Source: a virus | Length of the DNA stretch: 23,964 nt | Virus record (IMG/VR): IMGVR_UViG_3300049459_000333 | Span: 1 to 23,964 of that record | Direction: 5' to 3' (one strand) | In this document: one piece after another, positions 11,843 to 18,013 of the stretch | Layout of the letters: each line of letters starts with the position of its first letter | Numbering within the stretch: position 1 is the first letter of the stretch | Program-made: the position numbers and the translations under genes | The notes under the pieces: generated by a model | Database searches by the model: none | Told to the model about the DNA's origin: nothing | Seen by the model: the letters and a program-made list of their open reading frames with translations, nothing else

Positions 11843-12607
11843 TCAGTCGTAGATGCCGTAGCTGAACTCATCCTCATCGCAGTCGACGATGATTTTGGAT
11901 TTACCGAAGTAGAGTGCAGCGACCATCTTTTCGAATGGAGAGCGGAATTTCAGTGTTTGGCTGATCTTCTCGTTGTCGATTTTGGCGGCGTACACCGAGC
12001 CAACCTCATGACCTTTTTCGTTTCGGTCTTTCCCGTAGCGGTCGAAGCTGATGTGGATCGCATTGCCGAGCATGTACTCGCTGCGCTCGGAGCTTCGGGA
12101 ATAGGTTGAAATCCCGTGATCCTTCGGTTCCTTGTCGAAGTAGATGTGCATGCCACCGTAGTCGGATGGCTGGAAGCGAATGTCCGGAGCTTCCCAGTGA
12201 TCTTCGGCTGCCGACTCTTTGTGGTCTTCGACGAAGGCTTCCAGCAGCGCCTGCAAGCTGATCACTTCCGGCAGCGCATCTTTGTTCAGCACCTCATCGA
12301 TCTGTTTCTGCGCCAAGCGCACCATGTCGGCTTCGACGCCACTGTTTTCCCACTTTTCCTTCAAAGCAGCAGCGACCATCGCGTTGTAGCGGGTCAGCTC
12401 AAAGATTTCGGTCAAATTGGCTGGCAGCGCGGCCTTGATTGCCTCCTCGACCTGCTTGCCCATTTCGCCGTAACGGCCGAAGCAACTGTCGACCACGCTG
12501 GTGAACATCTTCTTTACATGCTCATCGATGATTTCGACTGGCTTGTCGCTGTTTGCGAAAGCAGTGACGCGCTCGGCGAGCAGCGCTTGAAGTGTTTGTT
12601 CGCTCAT
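11843..12607 (-). CDS. first large protein of the PL operon, unknown function
   Basis: The 254-residue protein starts MSEQTLQALLAERVTAFANS, with GGAG six bases upstream. A longer reading to 12709 crosses the remains of small leader genes. The N-terminal half is helical (VKKMFTSVVDSCFGRYGEMG; ALKEKWENSGVEADMVRLAQ). The C-terminal half has strands and a DYGGMHIYFDKEPKDHG region, and ends IIVDCDEDEFSYGIYD. It carries no motif I can assign. It is the first sizeable gene transcribed from PL, the place where lambda has N and exclusion genes, so it is made early after infection. Confidence 0.75.
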   Translation of the reverse strand: MSEQTLQALLAERVTAFANSDKPVEIIDEHVKKMFTSVVDSCFGRYGEMGKQVEEAIKAALPANLTEIFELTRYNAMVAAALKEKWENSGVEADMVRLAQKQIDEVLNKDALPEVISLQALLEAFVEDHKESAAEDHWEAPDIRFQPSDYGGMHIYFDKEPKDHGISTYSRSSERSEYMLGNAIHISFDRYGKDRNEKGHEVGSVYAAKIDNEKISQTLKFRSPFEKMVAALYFGKSKIIVDCDEDEFSYGIYD

Positions 12608-12884
12608 TTGATGCTCCGTGCTTGATCGGTTGATTTCCCGTCTGGCCCTGTCGCCAAGGCCAGCCAGTGAAATTTGTTTTTCTCCGCACCCGCTTACCAG
12701 GTCATTCACTCAGTTCGGTCAACACCTCGTCCGCCGTCGCAGTGGGCTGCGCGTTGGCAGGCTTTCGGGCCTGTCGGATCGCCGGTCGCCAGTAGAGGCA
12801 AGTGCGGTTTTGTTCATCGGTTTACTGACCTCCCACCGATGGAGCCGGGAGTGACCTAATCGGACTGGCCGGGTAGTCGTTCAT
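12604..12884 (-). other. PL leader with small ORFs, two broken by in-frame TAA
   Basis: ATG 12884 opens MNDYPASPIRSLPAPSVGGQ then TAA. The same frame continues as a protein-like stretch ending DEVLTELSE at TGA 12704-12702. That stop overlaps ATG 12705 (ATGA), which reads MTW, TAA, then AGAEKNKFHWLALATGPDGK. The last part ends SIK at a TGA that overlaps the start of the 254-residue gene. A third frame, ATG 12817 with GGGAGG upstream, encodes 32 residues beginning MNKTALASTGDRRSDR and ending in LRRRTRC, rich in arginine. These could be decayed small genes, or the Arg-rich peptide could be a real N-like factor. Confidence 0.4.
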
Positions 12885-12893
12885 GGCACGGGT

Positions 12894-12905
12894 TGTTAAA
12901 GAGCG
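12894..12905 (-). promoter_or_regulatory. boxA antitermination element in the PL leader
   Basis: The minus strand reads CGCTCTTTAACA, the classical boxA bound by NusB/NusE, about 40 bases after the predicted PL start. I did not find a convincing boxB hairpin next to it; CTCCC and GGGAG about 40 bases further could pair. Antitermination here would explain read-through of the terminator at 11052-11078. Confidence 0.6.
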
Positions 12906-12950
12906 GCGCGGCTTTCGCTGCGGGGCCGGTGTTGCGTTGGCTTGCGAATA

Positions 12951-12979
12951 AAAGTAGCAGCGCTGCTATTCAAAGTAAA
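12951..12979 (-). promoter_or_regulatory. early leftward promoter PL
   Basis: TTTACT (12979-12974) and TACTTT (12956-12951) are spaced by 17 bases, with operator OL1 in the spacer. The operator lies in the same place relative to the -10 box as in PR. TTGAAT/TATTCG, shifted by six bases, is an alternative reading. Confidence 0.55.
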
Positions 12980-12990
12980 TAGCGCTGCTA
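12955..12990. promoter_or_regulatory. left operator OL, two repressor sites
   Basis: OL1 is the perfect palindrome TAGCAGCGCTGCTA (12955-12968). OL2 (12977-12990, AAATAGCGCTGCTA) keeps the right half, with a centre spacing of 22 bases. The same sequence recurs three times between cI and cro, so both operators are probably bound by CI and Cro. Confidence 0.8.
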
Positions 12991-13010
12991 ATAATAATTT
13001 CTGCGGGCGT

Positions 13011-13035
13011 AAAAAAGCCCGCACATGGCGGGCTT
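13011..13035 (-). terminator. intrinsic terminator, leftward
   Basis: On the minus strand AAGCCCGC and GCGGGCTT pair around a five-base loop and six T follow. It ends the transcript of the Imm-like gene just before OL/PL, isolating PL from lysogenic transcription. Confidence 0.85.
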
Positions 13036-13049
13036 GGGAAAAGTGGGGT

Positions 13050-13628
13050 TCAGTCAAGAATTGGTGGGTATTTCCCGCTTACGGAATCCCGGTACATGAT
13101 TTCGCTGAAGAGCCTCGGCTCATTCCGAAGGAGCGCTAAGGCCTGCTTTGCCTCTTCTTTTGTTTCAAACGGGCCGGCCCCAATTGCCGTGCCAATCATT
13201 GGAACAACTGGAAGTCCAAGCGCCTTGATCGCCTCGATGGTGCTTAGCTGCTCCGCACCCTCCTTACAGGGTAATGCAACCCACCCGTTCCGGAGTCGTG
13301 GAGCCTGAATAGCTTCAACATCTGCACTACAGTGCTTGCACTTGATGGCTGCGCTCTTGATCGTTTCGGCGCAGAAAGGGCAGGCACGCTCGGCGGACGC
13401 ACCAACTCCTAGCCCCAAACTGTTTTTCGGTTTTTCTGTGTTTGCGGAGGAAGCCCAAACCAATGCGGCGACCCATCCTAAAAACGTCCAGCCAAGGAAA
13501 AGATTGACCAGGAAAATCGACGTTCCGTTGAGGTGCTTTCGACTTGAGGCAACAAATGTGGGCAGGAAATAGATTACGAAGCCGACCACCAGAAACAGAA
13601 AGCCAGCCATAGGACTTCCACTATCCAT
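13050..13628 (-). CDS. T4-Imm-like superinfection immunity protein with zinc ribbon
   Basis: This 192-residue inner-membrane protein has three visible parts. Residues 8-60 hold two membrane helices joined by a short loop, with FVIYFLPTFVA, HLNGTSIFLVNLFLGWT and GWVAALVWA. This is the signature of the Imm superinfection-immunity family, whose T4 member blocks DNA entry of a second phage. Residues 83-100 are a zinc ribbon, CPFC and CKHC 10 residues apart. Residues about 112-170 resemble a SPOR-type domain (GAGPFETKEEAKQALALL), which could bind peptidoglycan or another protein. A second start at M7 has a nearer ribosome site. It is flanked by terminators and is likely transcribed on its own in the lysogen; TAAAAT about 40 bases upstream may be the -10 box. 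Confidence 0.75.
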   Translation of the reverse strand: MDSGSPMAGFLFLVVGFVIYFLPTFVASSRKHLNGTSIFLVNLFLGWTFLGWVAALVWASSANTEKPKNSLGLGVGASAERACPFCAETIKSAAIKCKHCSADVEAIQAPRLRNGWVALPCKEGAEQLSTIEAIKALGLPVVPMIGTAIGAGPFETKEEAKQALALLRNEPRLFSEIMYRDSVSGKYPPILD

Positions 13629-13642
13629 ATCGTAAAACCTGA

Positions 13643-14031
13643 TCCATTGAGGGAGACGCGGATTTTACCATTCGTGGCCGTGCGCCACCATCTTCTGCAC
13701 CGTCAGTCGCCGCCACTGAACGGCAGCGCTTTTTTGGGGGGGGCTCAACCGGTGCACCCCTCCAGGTACTCACTATAAACGACGATGGGAAAGAGCGGGC
13801 CCTGTCCGCCTGGCGCAAGTTACTTGAAGAGCCAGAAATCCGAACGGACGCCGATGAGCATTACGACGAACTGCTGAAGCTGGCGGACGGGTACAACCGC
13901 GCGTAATCGACGGTGATGACTGGCGGGAGCTGGCGGAGGAGGCGACTGTCTTTTATGCGCATTCGGTCGAGATGGCGAGGGGGGGGCGCAGAGTTGCTGA
14001 GAAAAACAGCCTGACGTCTCGACAAACATAA
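13643..14031 (+). pseudogene. remnant of a forward phage gene with frameshift
   Basis: A forward frame from 13643 to the TAA at 13904 has no usable start codon but ends in convincing protein sequence (LTINDDGKERALSAWRKLLE, then DEHYDELLKLADGYNRA). Directly after it, one base out of frame, comes VIDGDDWRELAEEATVFYAH, continuing to TAA 14029-14031. One extra G before taatcg would join them. Two runs of eight G (13736-13743 and 13979-13986) lie in the remnant and are prone to slippage. The joined protein would be helical and acidic, like accessory early proteins. The terminator at 14034-14058 follows in its direction. Confidence 0.5.
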
Positions 14032-14033
14032 TA

Positions 14034-14058
14034 AAAAGCCCCTGCGTCAGGGGCTTTT
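14034..14058. terminator. bidirectional intrinsic terminator
   Basis: AAAAGCCCCTG and CAGGGGCTTTT form an 11-base stem around CGT. Both strands end in a T run. It closes the cI-STAS/GHKL transcript on the minus strand, about 105 bases after the GHKL gene's stop, and the decayed gene on the plus strand. Confidence 0.85.
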
Positions 14059-14163
14059 CTGGGCAAATTTCACCGAGGCCTAACAGCAGATCTTGGTAAA
14101 TGCATCCTGAAGGATTCGCAGCATTTTATTTTTTATAGCTTGTGCTCTGAATGTACGCAAGCT

Positions 14164-15501
14164 CTACGTGTTGTCATCCAGAATAAAATCTATTGTCTCG
14201 CGAATTTCGGGAGTTGCGTTTACAAACTTAATCCGCTTATATGAACTCATGCCCAAACTTTTAATTGGGGAGGCAAGCAAGGCACTCAGGAAACTATGAG
14301 GCGAGCTTACAACATTCTCGAAGTTTATCAGGACGTTTTTCCCTTCTTCTATTGCAGGAAAAATTCTTTTGTCACGCAGTTTTATTGCGGCCTCTTTGTC
14401 TTCTGCGTATTTTCCGAAAAAGTTTTCAATGCCAATTAAAATTGTGGTTGCAGCTTCCTTTGTATCGCCGAATTTTTGCTCTTTGTCGGCGGCCTCACGG
14501 AATTCCTGCATTATTTTGTGCAATACGAAATTCGAGTTTCTTTCCAGGCGGAGAGAGACCAGTACAAGAGTGCCTGGCCATGCTGTTTCCATTCGTCTAC
14601 GCGTTACATCTCTCGGTGATATGTGAACTAGTCCATTTCCTGAAAGTATGTGCATGTCGGCGTTTAAACGCCTTATAATATTTGATGAGATGAATAATCC
14701 CATGCCTGCGTTATTTTTATTTTTATATGGGTCGTTACGGCCAAAGGTTCCAGAAACTTTTGGACGCAAAGCAAACTCAATCGCCTCCTCGTCCGTTTCT
14801 AGTGGTGGAAAGGCTTGTTCTATATGTGCCTTTATGCCGACTCCCAAGTCGGCAATAATGAATTGGATTTCGTTCCGCTGTTTGTACCATGTGAACTGGA
14901 CTAGTGATGGTATGCGAACGCTTCTTGGTCCTGAGAAACAGCTGCCATGTTCCATAGTGTTATATAAAAGCTCGCCCAGAACATAACGCAAAGTGCTTTC
15001 ATACTCAACGTTGAATCCATCTGTGTATGATTCTGCTGACTGTATGACCGTCCCGAAATCCTTCGCGTCTCTAACTGCGAAAAGCGGTTTAAAATGATTG
15101 CCTTTGAACTGCTGGCCATCATTAAATAACACGGCAAATAAACCTCGCGCACCCATTGTGCGCCACATTTCGCTAGCTCCAGTAACCTTTTCATTTTCTA
15201 CAAAGGTTACTCGACAGCCTTGAGATTTTAATTTCCAGCCGTAAATGGCAAGCAGGGACAAAGCTTGATAGTTAGCTGTGTGACATCTCGTCAGGTCGAT
15301 CTCTACTGGCGAGTCATGAATATTCCAGTTAAAAAAACTAATGAGCCTCTCAAAGTCATAAACATCATGCTCTTTAAAGGAAAATCGTGGAGGTAGCTGA
15401 AGCTTGACCACTCTCTGATCCTCTAGCTCTTTTTTTAACTCTTCGAAACCTTCGTGATACATCGTCAGTCCCTTTACGATTTCAGAATGGTTTTCAGTCA
15501 T
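14164..15501 (-). CDS. STAS-GHKL ATPase-STAS-like protein in the rex position
   Basis: This 445-residue protein starts MTENHSEIVKGLTMYHEGFE, with AAAGG just upstream. Residues about 35-135 look like a STAS-type domain (VEIDLTRCHTANYQALSLLA, then KLKSQGCRVTFVENEKV). Residues 170-320 carry a GHKL ATP-binding fold: N box LGELLYNTMEHG (Glu177, Asn181), G1 box ADLGVGI (Asp218, Gly220, Gly222) and G2 box NAGMGLFISSNII (266-270). Residues about 365-443 resemble a second STAS-like domain of the DUF4325 type (GKNVLINFENVVSSPHSFLS). No phosphorylatable histidine or membrane span is visible. The gene is clearly AT-rich and starts 28 bases after cI, so it is probably made in lysogens from the cI promoter. 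A defence or host-signalling role is inferred, not shown. Confidence 0.75.
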   Translation of the reverse strand: MTENHSEIVKGLTMYHEGFEELKKELEDQRVVKLQLPPRFSFKEHDVYDFERLISFFNWNIHDSPVEIDLTRCHTANYQALSLLAIYGWKLKSQGCRVTFVENEKVTGASEMWRTMGARGLFAVLFNDGQQFKGNHFKPLFAVRDAKDFGTVIQSAESYTDGFNVEYESTLRYVLGELLYNTMEHGSCFSGPRSVRIPSLVQFTWYKQRNEIQFIIADLGVGIKAHIEQAFPPLETDEEAIEFALRPKVSGTFGRNDPYKNKNNAGMGLFISSNIIRRLNADMHILSGNGLVHISPRDVTRRRMETAWPGTLVLVSLRLERNSNFVLHKIMQEFREAADKEQKFGDTKEAATTILIGIENFFGKYAEDKEAAIKLRDKRIFPAIEEGKNVLINFENVVSSPHSFLSALLASPIKSLGMSSYKRIKFVNATPEIRETIDFILDDNT

Positions 15502-15529
15502 GACCTTTACATCATTTTTGGTGTAGTTG

Positions 15530-16318
15530 TCAGCGAGAATACATAGCCCACCAGAACACATGCCCCAAAATCGATATCTGCTGCTCCTGGATCTGCTGGA
15601 ACGTATAGTCCTCGTCCGGATGCTCATCACGGTTGAAGCTGCGCAAGCGAATCCCGATCGGGATGCGGTAGACCTGCTTTACGCGAAGCTGGCCGTTGTG
15701 GTTGATGGCATACATCTCGCCGTCGACGATATCGCTCAGTGAGTTTTTCCCCACGTTCACGCCAACTGTGGCGCCGTCGCGCAGCACGGGCATCATGCTG
15801 TTCCCGCCAACCTTCACGCACTTCGCGTTGCTGAACTGAACGCCGTTGTGGCGTAGATCCTTCTTGTTGAAGCGGAGGCGTGAGTTAGCGCTTTCCTCAA
15901 TCGCAAACCTGCCAGATCCGGCCGCCAGTTCGACTTCATGAAGGAAGGGGACATAGACCTCATCGTCATCGAGCGGGGTTTCGTCGTCCCAAGTCTCGAT
16001 GCTTCCTAATTTTACGCTTGGCTGTATGCGGTCCTGCTGCACGCTGGCAACAGTGGATAACAGTCGAGAGCTGACTTCGCTTGCATCGAAGTTGAGCGCC
16101 TTTGCGAGCTTCAGCAGCGCTTCAACATTTAGTGGCACCTTCCCGGTGGCGTATTGGCTGAATGCGCTTTGCCCGGACCATCCACATGCTTCGGCAACGT
16201 CCGCCTGCGTCAGGCTGCGCCCGGCCGCTTTAGCAGCTGATTTCCGCTGTTCGTAGATAGCTTTGAGCCTGGCGCTCTCGGCGACTTCTTCGGGGGTGAG
16301 GGGGCGACGTATTTTCAT
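15530..16318 (-). CDS. cI: CI repressor, LexA-like, self-cleaving
   Basis: The 262-residue repressor maintains lysogeny. The N-terminal helix-turn-helix spans about 37-60 (TQADVAEACGWSGQSAFSQY). The C-terminal S24 peptidase domain has the Ala-Gly cleavage site in ELAAGSGRF (133-134), the catalytic serine in GNSMMPVLRDGA (Ser174) and the lysine in QLRVKQVYR (Lys214). All residues needed for RecA-stimulated self-cleavage are present, so induction by DNA damage is expected. The start MKIRRPLTPE is preferred over the longer frame to 16420, which runs through the operators. There is no ribosome site, and the promoter places the RNA start only a few bases upstream, so the message is nearly leaderless like lambda cI. 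Confidence 0.95.
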   Translation of the reverse strand: MKIRRPLTPEEVAESARLKAIYEQRKSAAKAAGRSLTQADVAEACGWSGQSAFSQYATGKVPLNVEALLKLAKALNFDASEVSSRLLSTVASVQQDRIQPSVKLGSIETWDDETPLDDDEVYVPFLHEVELAAGSGRFAIEESANSRLRFNKKDLRHNGVQFSNAKCVKVGGNSMMPVLRDGATVGVNVGKNSLSDIVDGEMYAINHNGQLRVKQVYRIPIGIRLRSFNRDEHPDEDYTFQQIQEQQISILGHVFWWAMYSR

Positions 16319-16328
16319 ACGAATAAGA

Positions 16329-16356
16329 GTATTAGCAGAGCTGATATCCAAGCAAA
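16329..16356 (-). promoter_or_regulatory. cI maintenance promoter PRM
   Basis: On the minus strand TAATAC (16334-16329) is a good -10 box, with TTTGCT 16 bases upstream as a weak -35 box. The -10 box overlaps the operator nearest cI (16333-16346). The next operator sits at the -35 box, as needed for repressor-stimulated transcription. The RNA would start near 16322, four bases before the cI ATG. Confidence 0.6.
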
Positions 16357-16400
16357 CAGCGCTGCTAGTATTTTGTTGCTGATAAAAAGCAGCGCTGCTA
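16333..16400. promoter_or_regulatory. right operator OR, three repressor sites
   Basis: The sites are 16333-16346 (TAGCAGAGCTGATA, 12 of 14 matches to the OL1 palindrome), 16354-16367 (AAACAGCGCTGCTA, 12 of 14) and 16387-16400 (AAGCAGCGCTGCTA, 13 of 14). The last sits in the PR spacer. By position they correspond to OR3, OR2 and OR1. Confidence 0.85.
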
Positions 16401-16404
16401 CTAT
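16376..16404 (+). promoter_or_regulatory. early rightward promoter PR
   Basis: TTGCTG (16376-16381) and TACTAT (16399-16404) are 17 bases apart and enclose OR1. Transcription would start near 16411, about 24 bases before the cro ATG. Confidence 0.7.
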
Positions 16405-16434
16405 CCATTGCAGATATCAAGCCGTGGAAATTCC

Positions 16435-16638
16435 ATGAAAAAGATCCCTTTGAGCAAATACCTAGAAGAGCACGGCACTCAAGCCGCGCTTGCTGCTGCT
16501 CTCGGCGTGAACCAGAGCGCGATCTCGCAAATGGTTCGAGCCGGCAGAAGCATCGAAATCACCCTTTATGACGACGGCCGTATTGAAGCGAATGAGATTC
16601 GTCCGATCCCGGCGCGCCCCAAGCGCACAGCAGCCTAA
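16435..16638 (+). CDS. cro: Cro-type repressor
   Basis: This 67-residue protein starts MKKIPLSKYLEEHGTQAALA. The helix-turn-helix is TQAALAAALGVNQSAISQMV (about residues 15-34), and the end is basic (RPIPARPKRTAA). Length, position right after PR and the opposite orientation to cI fit lambda Cro, which turns down early promoters and favours lysis. The ATG at 16435 follows GTGGAA. An upstream in-frame start at 16408 would lie at or before the transcription start and is rejected. It is expected to bind the same TAGCAGCGCTGCTA sites as CI. Confidence 0.9.
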   Translation: MKKIPLSKYLEEHGTQAALAAALGVNQSAISQMVRAGRSIEITLYDDGRIEANEIRPIPARPKRTAA

Positions 16639-16719
16639 GGCAGTCATTGCTTACTGCCCGAACAAATGATCGCCCACGCACTGGCAGGGCGCCACGGAAA
16701 CAACTTTGAGGTTTTACGA

Positions 16720-17142
16720 ATGGAAGATTTTCTGCGGGCCTGCCAGAGCGCTGTCCTCGACAACGAAGCCAAGACCCTTGCTGCAAAGATGGGCGTTCCT
16801 CACGTTGGCCTGCTTCAGCGCGCCAATCCGGACAACGACGCACACCACCTGACCGTGGAGCATTTGTTCGGGATTCTGTTGCACACCGGCGACATGCGCC
16901 CTCTGGCTGCACTGGCGAGTGAATTTGGTTTCGACGTCGTTGCGAAAGCTGCGCCGGAGCCGCAAGCATTGACCAAATCACTGATCAACGTCGGCAAAGA
17001 GGTCGCCGATCTGACCATCGCGGTGCACCAGGCGCTGGATGACAACCACGTCAGTTCTTTCGAGAAAAACTTGATCCGCCAGGAGATCAACCACGTTCGG
17101 CAGAGCCTAGACGTGATGGATGCCTCGGTGAAGGCTGCCTGA
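16720..17142 (+). CDS. CII-family phage regulatory protein
   Basis: This 140-residue protein starts MEDFLRACQSAVLDNEAKTL, with GAGG eight bases upstream. The sequence continues LAAKMGVPHVGLLQRANPDN and HHLTVEHLFGILLHTGDMRP, which is the pattern of the phage regulatory CII family (the P2-like/YmfL group rather than lambda CII itself). The N-terminal half holds a helix-turn-helix-like segment. The C-terminal half is helical (LINVGKEVADLTIAVHQALD). Its place after cro implies a choice-of-lysogeny role. A short antisense RNA is predicted just after its stop. Confidence 0.8.
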   Translation: MEDFLRACQSAVLDNEAKTLAAKMGVPHVGLLQRANPDNDAHHLTVEHLFGILLHTGDMRPLAALASEFGFDVVAKAAPEPQALTKSLINVGKEVADLTIAVHQALDDNHVSSFEKNLIRQEINHVRQSLDVMDASVKAA

Positions 17143-17152
17143 ACTCCGGGCA

Positions 17153-17197
17153 CAAAAAAGCCGACGTAGAAGGTCGGCTGATTCGCAAAACTAGAGA
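17153..17197 (-). ncRNA. predicted OOP-like antisense RNA, about 45 nt
   Basis: A minus-strand promoter at 17204-17232 would start RNA near 17197. The RNA would end in a hairpin (AGCCGAC, seven-base loop, GTCGGCT) followed by six T at 17159-17154. The terminator points leftward although no leftward protein gene precedes it. The product would cover the space between the cII-like stop and the Rha-like ribosome site. Lambda has its OOP RNA at the same place, between cII and O. Confidence 0.5.
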
Positions 17198-17203
17198 GAC
17201 CCG

Positions 17204-17232
17204 ATTATGCAGAGCGAACCCAATTCAAGCAA
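17204..17232 (-). promoter_or_regulatory. leftward promoter of the OOP-like RNA
   Basis: TTGCTT (17232-17227) and CATAAT (17209-17204) are separated by 17 bases on the minus strand. The promoter lies over the start of the Rha-like gene and 11 bases from the double-dyad element at 17244-17283. Confidence 0.5.
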
Positions 17233-18013
17233 TACCCCCCAAAGTGTCGCGACACGTTTTTCGAATTCTGAAAACGTGTCGCGTACCACGATGTCTTCTC
17301 GCGAGATTGCCGATCTGGTCGACTCGCGCCATGACAAGGTCAAACAATCCATCGAGCGCTTGGTAGAGCGCGGTGTAATCGTCCAGCCCCCATTGGGGGA
17401 TGAACAATTCCGCGACTCGCTTGGCCGCCCACGGACCGAATCCGTCTACCACGTCGGCAAGCGCGACAGCTTCGTTGTCGTTGCTCAGCTCAGCCCTGAG
17501 TTCACCGCCGCCCTCGTTGATCGCTGGCAGGAGCTGGAAGGGCGGATCGCCCAGCCGCGCGAACTCTCCCGCATGGATCTCATCCAGCTCGCCTTTGAGG
17601 CTGAACAGCAACGCCTGCAACTGACAATCCAGGTCGAAGCGCAGGCCTCGAAAATCCACTCCATGGAGAACCTGTTCAAGGAGGGGATGACCCATACCCA
17701 GTTCTGCAAAGGACTCAACGGGGTCAACGTCATGCAGGTGGGCAAATTCCTCGAGGGCCGGAACTGGCTCTACAACGAGAGCAAATCCGGCCTGCGCTTC
17801 CGTGTGGCGTCATACGCACGCGACAAGTACATGACCGAGCATCAGACCGAAGTAACCCCTCACGGCCGCGAGCCATTCGTTTCCTTCACGCCGATCTTGC
17901 TCAAGAAGGGCGCCGCACGCCTGTACGATCTGTACCTGACCGGCGCACTACCAATGAAGAAGAACTGGGACGGCTTGTTCACTCATAACAAAGCCTTGCG
18001 AGGTGCTGCGTGA
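17207..18013 (+). CDS. Rha/KilAC-type phage regulatory protein
   Basis: This is a 268-residue protein. Residues about 29-113 match the Rha domain (TMSSREIADLVDSRHDKVKQ, then SVYHVGKRDSFVVVAQLSPE). The C-terminal part, from about 150 on, resembles the KilAC/antirepressor DNA-binding domain (GMTHTQFCKGLNGVNVMQVG, ending WDGLFTHNKALRGAA). Such proteins act as antirepressors or interfere with growth when host factors are missing. The first 28 residues are low in conservation and are encoded partly by the double-dyad element (VATRFSNSENVSR), so a start at M29 is possible. The given ATG has GAGAG upstream. The stop overlaps the GTG of the O-like gene. Confidence 0.8.
   Translation: MQSEPNSSNTPQSVATRFSNSENVSRTTMSSREIADLVDSRHDKVKQSIERLVERGVIVQPPLGDEQFRDSLGRPRTESVYHVGKRDSFVVVAQLSPEFTAALVDRWQELEGRIAQPRELSRMDLIQLAFEAEQQRLQLTIQVEAQASKIHSMENLFKEGMTHTQFCKGLNGVNVMQVGKFLEGRNWLYNESKSGLRFRVASYARDKYMTEHQTEVTPHGREPFVSFTPILLKKGAARLYDLYLTGALPMKKNWDGLFTHNKALRGAA
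17244..17283. repeat. double-dyad element, copy 1
   Basis: GTGTCGCGACAC (17244-17255) is a perfect palindrome. After 20 bases comes GTGTCGCG (17276-17283). The inner part is also an inverted repeat (ACGTTTT and AAAACGT). The same layout and spacing recur at 23365-23406. Confidence 0.85.

Follow-up and report, generated by a model that had tools for sequence, protein, structure and literature searches.

A STAS-GHKL-DUF4325 fusion gene in the lambda rex position of a phage immunity region, a candidate one-gene infection or DNA-damage sensor

A 23,964-nt stretch of viral DNA (IMG/VR record IMGVR_UViG_3300049459_000333, positions 1 to 23,964; the whole stretch is referred to here as the window) carries a gene for a protein that joins an N-terminal STAS-like domain, a GHKL ATPase/kinase domain and a C-terminal DUF4325 domain in a single chain. 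The gene lies behind a cI-like repressor gene, in a strict lambda rex position. In phage lambda the phage-exclusion genes (rexAB) sit in this slot behind cI. The likeliest reading, to which we give an even chance, is that a CapK/VapK-like STAS-GHKL kinase has been fused to a VapS-like substrate, forming a switch made in the lysogen that responds to stress or infection and aids resistance to a second phage. Taken over the whole analysis, the protein is a good candidate sensor of infection or DNA damage, encoded by one gene.

The open reading frame as called encodes 445 aa on the minus strand, and residue numbers given here follow it. The coding sequence probably starts at Met14 of this frame, which leaves 432 aa, because the DNA alignment of the window with two phage relatives (L002 and L003; 72-73% identity, spanning 14158/14168-15463) ends at 15463, the first residue of the L002, L003 and L004 proteins aligns to Met14, and AAAGGG stands just upstream of its codon. 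With this start the gap from the cI stop is 67 bases and not the 28 bases given in the initial annotation (Table 1). As first described, the gene is AT-rich, with a GC content of 42.7% compared to 56.0% for the window, and a terminator-like hairpin follows its 3' end. It reads in the same direction as cI, and a scan of the gap between the two genes showed neither a terminator-like nor a promoter-like site. An Rfam search of 12400-16700 returned no match above cut-offs.

Table 1. Features of the fusion gene and of the surrounding immunity region, in window coordinates.
Feature	Position	Strand	Basis
STAS-GHKL-DUF4325 fusion, probable real coding sequence, 432 aa	14164..15462	-	homology edge, starts of relatives, AAAGGG
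445-aa ORF as first given	14164..15501	-	ORF call
N-terminal STAS-like domain, residues ~31-140	15082..15411	-	weak STAS_2 at 62-101, clearer STAS matches in relatives, model elements
GHKL ATPase/kinase domain, residues ~150-318 (E177/N181/H185, D218xG220xG222, G266xG268)	14548..15054	-	HATPase_c, invariant residues, CheA/SpoIIAB profile matches, Foldseek SpoIIAB
C-terminal DUF4325 STAS-like (VapS-like) domain, residues ~353-445	14167..14445	-	Pfam DUF4325, VapS 9z7o profile match, BFVD phage DUF4325 models
His402-Ser403, candidate phospho-acceptor site	14293..14298	-	Ser403 kept in 25/25 aligned DUF4325 domains without PIN linkage
Terminator-like hairpin (12 pairs)	14033..14059	-	hairpin scan
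cI-like repressor (HTH + Peptidase S24), likely start 16318	15530..16420	-	Pfam/PHROG; start judged from where the operators lie
oR-like cluster, three AGCAGCGCTGCT-type palindromes, cI/cro gap	16334..16399	.	palindrome search
oL-like pair of AGCAGCGCTGCT-type palindromes	12956..12989	.	palindrome search

The three domains had been read by eye in the initial annotation, and each of them was recovered. Pfam DUF4325 matched residues 372-433 above its cut-off (E 1.4e-7), and HATPase_c matched residues 168-287 just below its own cut-off (E 2.6e-5; 25.1 bits, with the cut-off at 26.4). The GHKL boxes, described as intact, are so by conservation as well, with E177, N181, H185, D218, G220, G266 and G268 invariant in 16 diverse relatives. 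STAS_2 at residues 62-101 was far below cut-off (E 0.1); the N-terminal STAS call stands beyond this weak match because relatives of the kinase part match STAS_2 (1.3e-4 in one) and STAS (5.5e-5 in another) and because the AlphaFold model has an alternating strand/helix order in this region. No HisKA or HPt phosphotransfer domain was found in the Pfam scan, in agreement with the reported lack of a histidine-kinase phosphorylation site, and this rules against a two-component histidine kinase. The same scan found no HTH or other DNA-binding domain. The whole chain is covered by PHROG 5816 (1.5e-222), an uncharacterised family of unknown function, and the STAS-GHKL part by PHROG 3364 (2e-28).

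When searched against the PDB, a profile of the kinase part (A4) matched CheA (3.6e-5) and SpoIIAB (0.024), and a profile of the DUF4325 part (A3) had Escherichia VapS (9z7o) as its best match (E 2.5e-5), with the next match at 0.67. The AlphaFold model was obtained on eight diverse sequences (mean pLDDT 72, pTM 0.63), and a run on five close sequences (pLDDT 50) was discarded. The best Foldseek match of the model in the PDB was the kinase SpoIIAB (probability 1.00, E 3.6e-3), the STAS matches included RsbV and RsbS, and the viral models matched in BFVD included phage DUF4325 proteins (probability 1.00). As no PDB match fell below 0.001, the fold evidence is supportive and not decisive alone. 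GHKL and STAS folds are shared with SpoIIAB/SpoIIAA and RsbW/RsbV; the window protein differs from both in its extra N-terminal STAS domain and fused substrate-like domain, and no sigma factor or serine phosphatase was seen. This closeness to SpoIIAB and STAS antagonists would suit lysogenic conversion, in which the protein acts on the host as a partner switch and changes one of its sigma factors or stress pathways; in Streptococcus phages, too, a split kinase/DUF4325 pair stands between lysin and integrase, a place typical of conversion genes. We nevertheless consider such a role quite unlikely, since among characterised proteins the one nearest in sequence to the DUF4325 part is VapS, the phospho-switch antitoxin of an anti-phage toxin system, and not an anti-anti-sigma factor.

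The domain order had been likened to a single-chain version of anti-sigma/STAS partner switching, and this gains sequence support from the match between DUF4325 and VapS and from the STAS-GHKL/VapS/CapS systems (PMC13373217). Both immune operons and toxins are under the control of STAS-GHKL kinases that have VapS or CapS partners (PMC13373217). VapKSC, an anti-phage toxin system, consists of the STAS-GHKL kinase VapK, VapS and the PIN toxin VapC (EMBO J 2026, PMC13373217). The mechanism proposed for it is that VapC is set free once VapS is phosphorylated at S48; protection against a phage requires VapC residues, VapS S48 and VapK F54 (PMC13373217). The window protein resembles this system in that its STAS-GHKL kinase, which has the ATP-site residues, precedes a STAS-like domain whose profile matches VapS. 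It differs in carrying both parts in one chain, whereas VapK and VapS are separate, and in that neither a PIN gene beside the fusion gene nor a PIN domain in any of the five phage records was found.

The acceptor site also differs. In the column of VapS S48 (two before Phe, a column taken from sequence alignment only) the window protein has His402, with Ser403 one position on. The pattern was x-S-[F/Y] in all 25 aligned DUF4325 domains without PIN linkage and S-x-F in all three that are PIN-linked, and therefore the VapS acceptor column holds His402 while the invariant serine is Ser403. In the kinase part, Thr75 stands in the column of W53 of a Deinococcus VapK-like protein, which is taken as the equivalent of VapK F54 by an inferred column, and no aromatic residue occurs in this inferred VapK F54/CapK W68 column (DNA-stacking, for the binding of single-stranded DNA) in any of the eight clade members. 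VapKSC proper was rejected for the window gene because of the missing PIN gene together with the acceptor shift. CapK/CapS (PMC13373217) is similar in that a STAS and GHKL kinase acts on a STAS domain; in the Pfam scan, however, the window kinase had no HTH and its STAS part no wHTH, and no immune operon was recognised beside the gene. Literature searches combining STAS-like with anti-phage and GHKL with prophage gave nothing relevant beyond PMC13373217 and PMC7924643.

Palindromes of the AGCAGCGCTGCT type start at 16334, 16355 and 16388 in the cI/cro gap and at 12956 and 12978 on the left side. With up to two mismatches, 11 matches occur in the window compared to 2.6 expected, and none of 100 shuffles was as high. 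As these operators flank the gene on both sides, it lies between oR-like and oL-like sites, between cI and oL and codirectional with cI, which bears out the rex position originally proposed. Pseudomonas phage PseuP_222 is 78% identical at the cI end but has other genes in the slot. Lambda RexAB and P. putida RexABpp (PMC12894663) share with the window gene the slot behind cI and the idea of a lysogen-made infection sensor. The window gene differs in encoding one soluble-looking protein (highest 19-residue hydropathy 0.9) and no membrane effector, and no sequence relation was seen. The location in the immunity region between the operator-like sites, and the Peptidase S24 domain of cI, would also fit a prophage self-regulator, that is, a DNA-damage or stress sensor coexpressed with cI that tunes the induction threshold or the lysis-lysogeny choice and does not act on other phages. 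This is unlikely given that the same gene stands beside unrelated repressors and also in bacterial chromosomes among genes other than phage regulators, and that Pfam found no DNA-binding domain in the protein.

The same immunity region contains a gene (13050-13628, minus strand) that combines a zinc-ribbon-like part with an Imm_superinfect domain (PF14373, 2.1e-17; PHROG 1039, 'immunity to superinfection') and has a homologue in PseuP_222 and, partly, in L002. It is a second candidate exclusion gene of the region. Positions 12627-12914 have no clear gene and no Rfam match above cut-off; they are matched at 94-100% identity in L003 and at 77-80% in many Pseudomonas phages.

Three phage relatives (L002, L003, L004) are 75-83% identical to the window protein, and L001, from a near relative of the window phage (94% identical DNA over 12372-17289), encodes an identical protein. 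The L002 and L003 genes lie behind an S24 repressor and the L004 gene near a PHROG 147 regulator, and the cI genes of L002 and L003 do not align to that of the window. Between the window gene and the three phage relatives pS was 0.85-0.93 and pN 0.12-0.17; pS so far exceeds pN that the frame is not a chance one, and the pN/pS of about 0.13-0.18 is a rough ratio since pS is near saturation. The GC content of the gene was 10-16 points below that of the surrounding locus in all five other loci measured. By these comparisons the fusion gene is a portable AT-rich cassette under protein-level selection, found beside non-homologous cI genes. No close relative was found among GenBank phages, and none in E. 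coli genomes.

Chromosomal relatives (51-58% identical) occur in Verrucomicrobiota, Kiritimatiellota and Acidobacteriota, behind genes as unrelated as thrS, rpoC and those for leucyl aminopeptidase and polysaccharide lyase. Such positions could point to a cellular housekeeping or metabolic regulator picked up by phages through chance, a reading we hold to be very improbable as the neighbours differ each time, the gene has the low GC described above among the loci measured, members of the family are rare in the genomes sampled and two of the chromosomal copies carry frameshifts. Frameshifted or interrupted copies of the fused gene were seen in Acidobacteriota at L009 3204-4483 and L041 968-2235.

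The module also occurs in a split form on phages and plasmids, consisting of a STAS-GHKL gene followed by a DUF4325 gene of about 100 aa. Besides the Streptococcus phages mentioned above, split pairs were found in Bacteroides phage BF1-TP2, on an Alicyclobacillus plasmid and, close to QueC and a methyltransferase, on a Pseudomonas plasmid. In Marinitoga phage MPV1 (L031 3831-6351) the CI-like repressor is followed by a methyltransferase, two small genes, PD-Lambda-1 (6e-117), the kinase, DUF4325 and the integrase, with the PD-Lambda-1 defence gene directly ahead of the pair. In Francisella phage KIRK a 293-aa hypothetical protein and then a DUF4325 protein come directly after CI (PMC7924643). 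Two triads of kinase, DUF4325 and PIN genes, similar to vapKSC, are present, one on a Deinococcus plasmid and the other in an Acidobacteriota genome. On a Bradyrhizobium plasmid (L035 4950-8733) a STAS-GHKL-type gene adjoins a gene matching pAgo-associated REase models (1.7e-138). Viral contigs scanned with split kinases gave no relatives.

In the tree, whose deep branches are weak, two changes are needed between fused and split forms. The window's fused clade has eight members (support 100/100), and a second fused clade (L016, L018, L044) is separate from it. A member of the second clade is flanked by a YhcG_C nuclease gene and by a 1324-aa ORF with a Walker-like DEVGMGKT motif (by eye), for whose product phmmer found no PDB match. 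The homologues are not confined to metabolic operons, as the phage relatives lie beside cI-type regulators and split relatives near PD-Lambda-1, PIN, restriction-type or pAgo-associated genes. The chromosomal members of the window's own clade do stand among housekeeping or metabolic genes, and the wider family is therefore more strongly linked to defence than this clade is.

The window protein has no match among the PADLOC models. The first ~405 positions of the PADLOC profile for the DISARM protein DrmA (PDLC02567) contain a STAS-GHKL-DUF4325 module, and this profile is matched by 14 of the 16 aligned relatives. L016 matches it at positions 46-405 (7.5e-100) and the Alicyclobacillus pair at 24-393 (1.2e-29). 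The DrmA genes found in two phyla lack the module, their matches starting no earlier than profile position ~411, and none spans module and helicase among the matches listed (278 Verrucomicrobiota and 297 Acidobacteriota genomes), so the idea that DrmA genes generally bear the module was rejected. With the module inside it, the profile can flag unrelated stand-alone kinases as DrmA. The window protein differs from DISARM DrmA in having no helicase part, and no match to the DrmA helicase body was found in the window record.

We propose that the fusion protein would be made in the lysogen from the cI transcript and would sense an infection or DNA-damage stress signal at its STAS-GHKL part. This part may act as a serine (or histidine) kinase and phosphorylate the DUF4325 domain near His402/Ser403, either in cis or between two copies, and the phosphorylated domain could then let go of a partner or bind one, by which the lysogen would better resist a second phage. 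Gene neighbourhoods argue for a phospho-switch, namely the split pairs on phages and plasmids, one of them behind a cI-like repressor, a methyltransferase and PD-Lambda-1. Points against are the absence of PIN from the five phage records, an acceptor column with His402 and not Ser/Thr, the chromosomal clade members among housekeeping or metabolic genes, the missing aromatic in the inferred column across the clade, and the lack of a PADLOC match for the window protein. A defence role for the fusion gene is given a probability of about one half. Possible, and put forward tentatively, is a one-gene prophage exclusion system in which temperate phages unrelated to one another carry a promoterless kinase-switch cassette in their rex slot; its acceptor (His402/Ser403) and trigger would differ from those of CapK/VapK, and its output would run via the host or another effector.

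The unstudied phage family PHROG 5816 and DUF4325 are now linked to the newly described CapKS/VapKSC phospho-switches, and in the slot that lambda uses for exclusion genes. The same module recurs split over two genes, fused in one gene and inside a DISARM helicase profile. The difference between S-x-F in PIN-linked VapS and x-S-F elsewhere provides a testable prediction on which residue is phosphorylated and on the other outputs that PIN-free switches may have.
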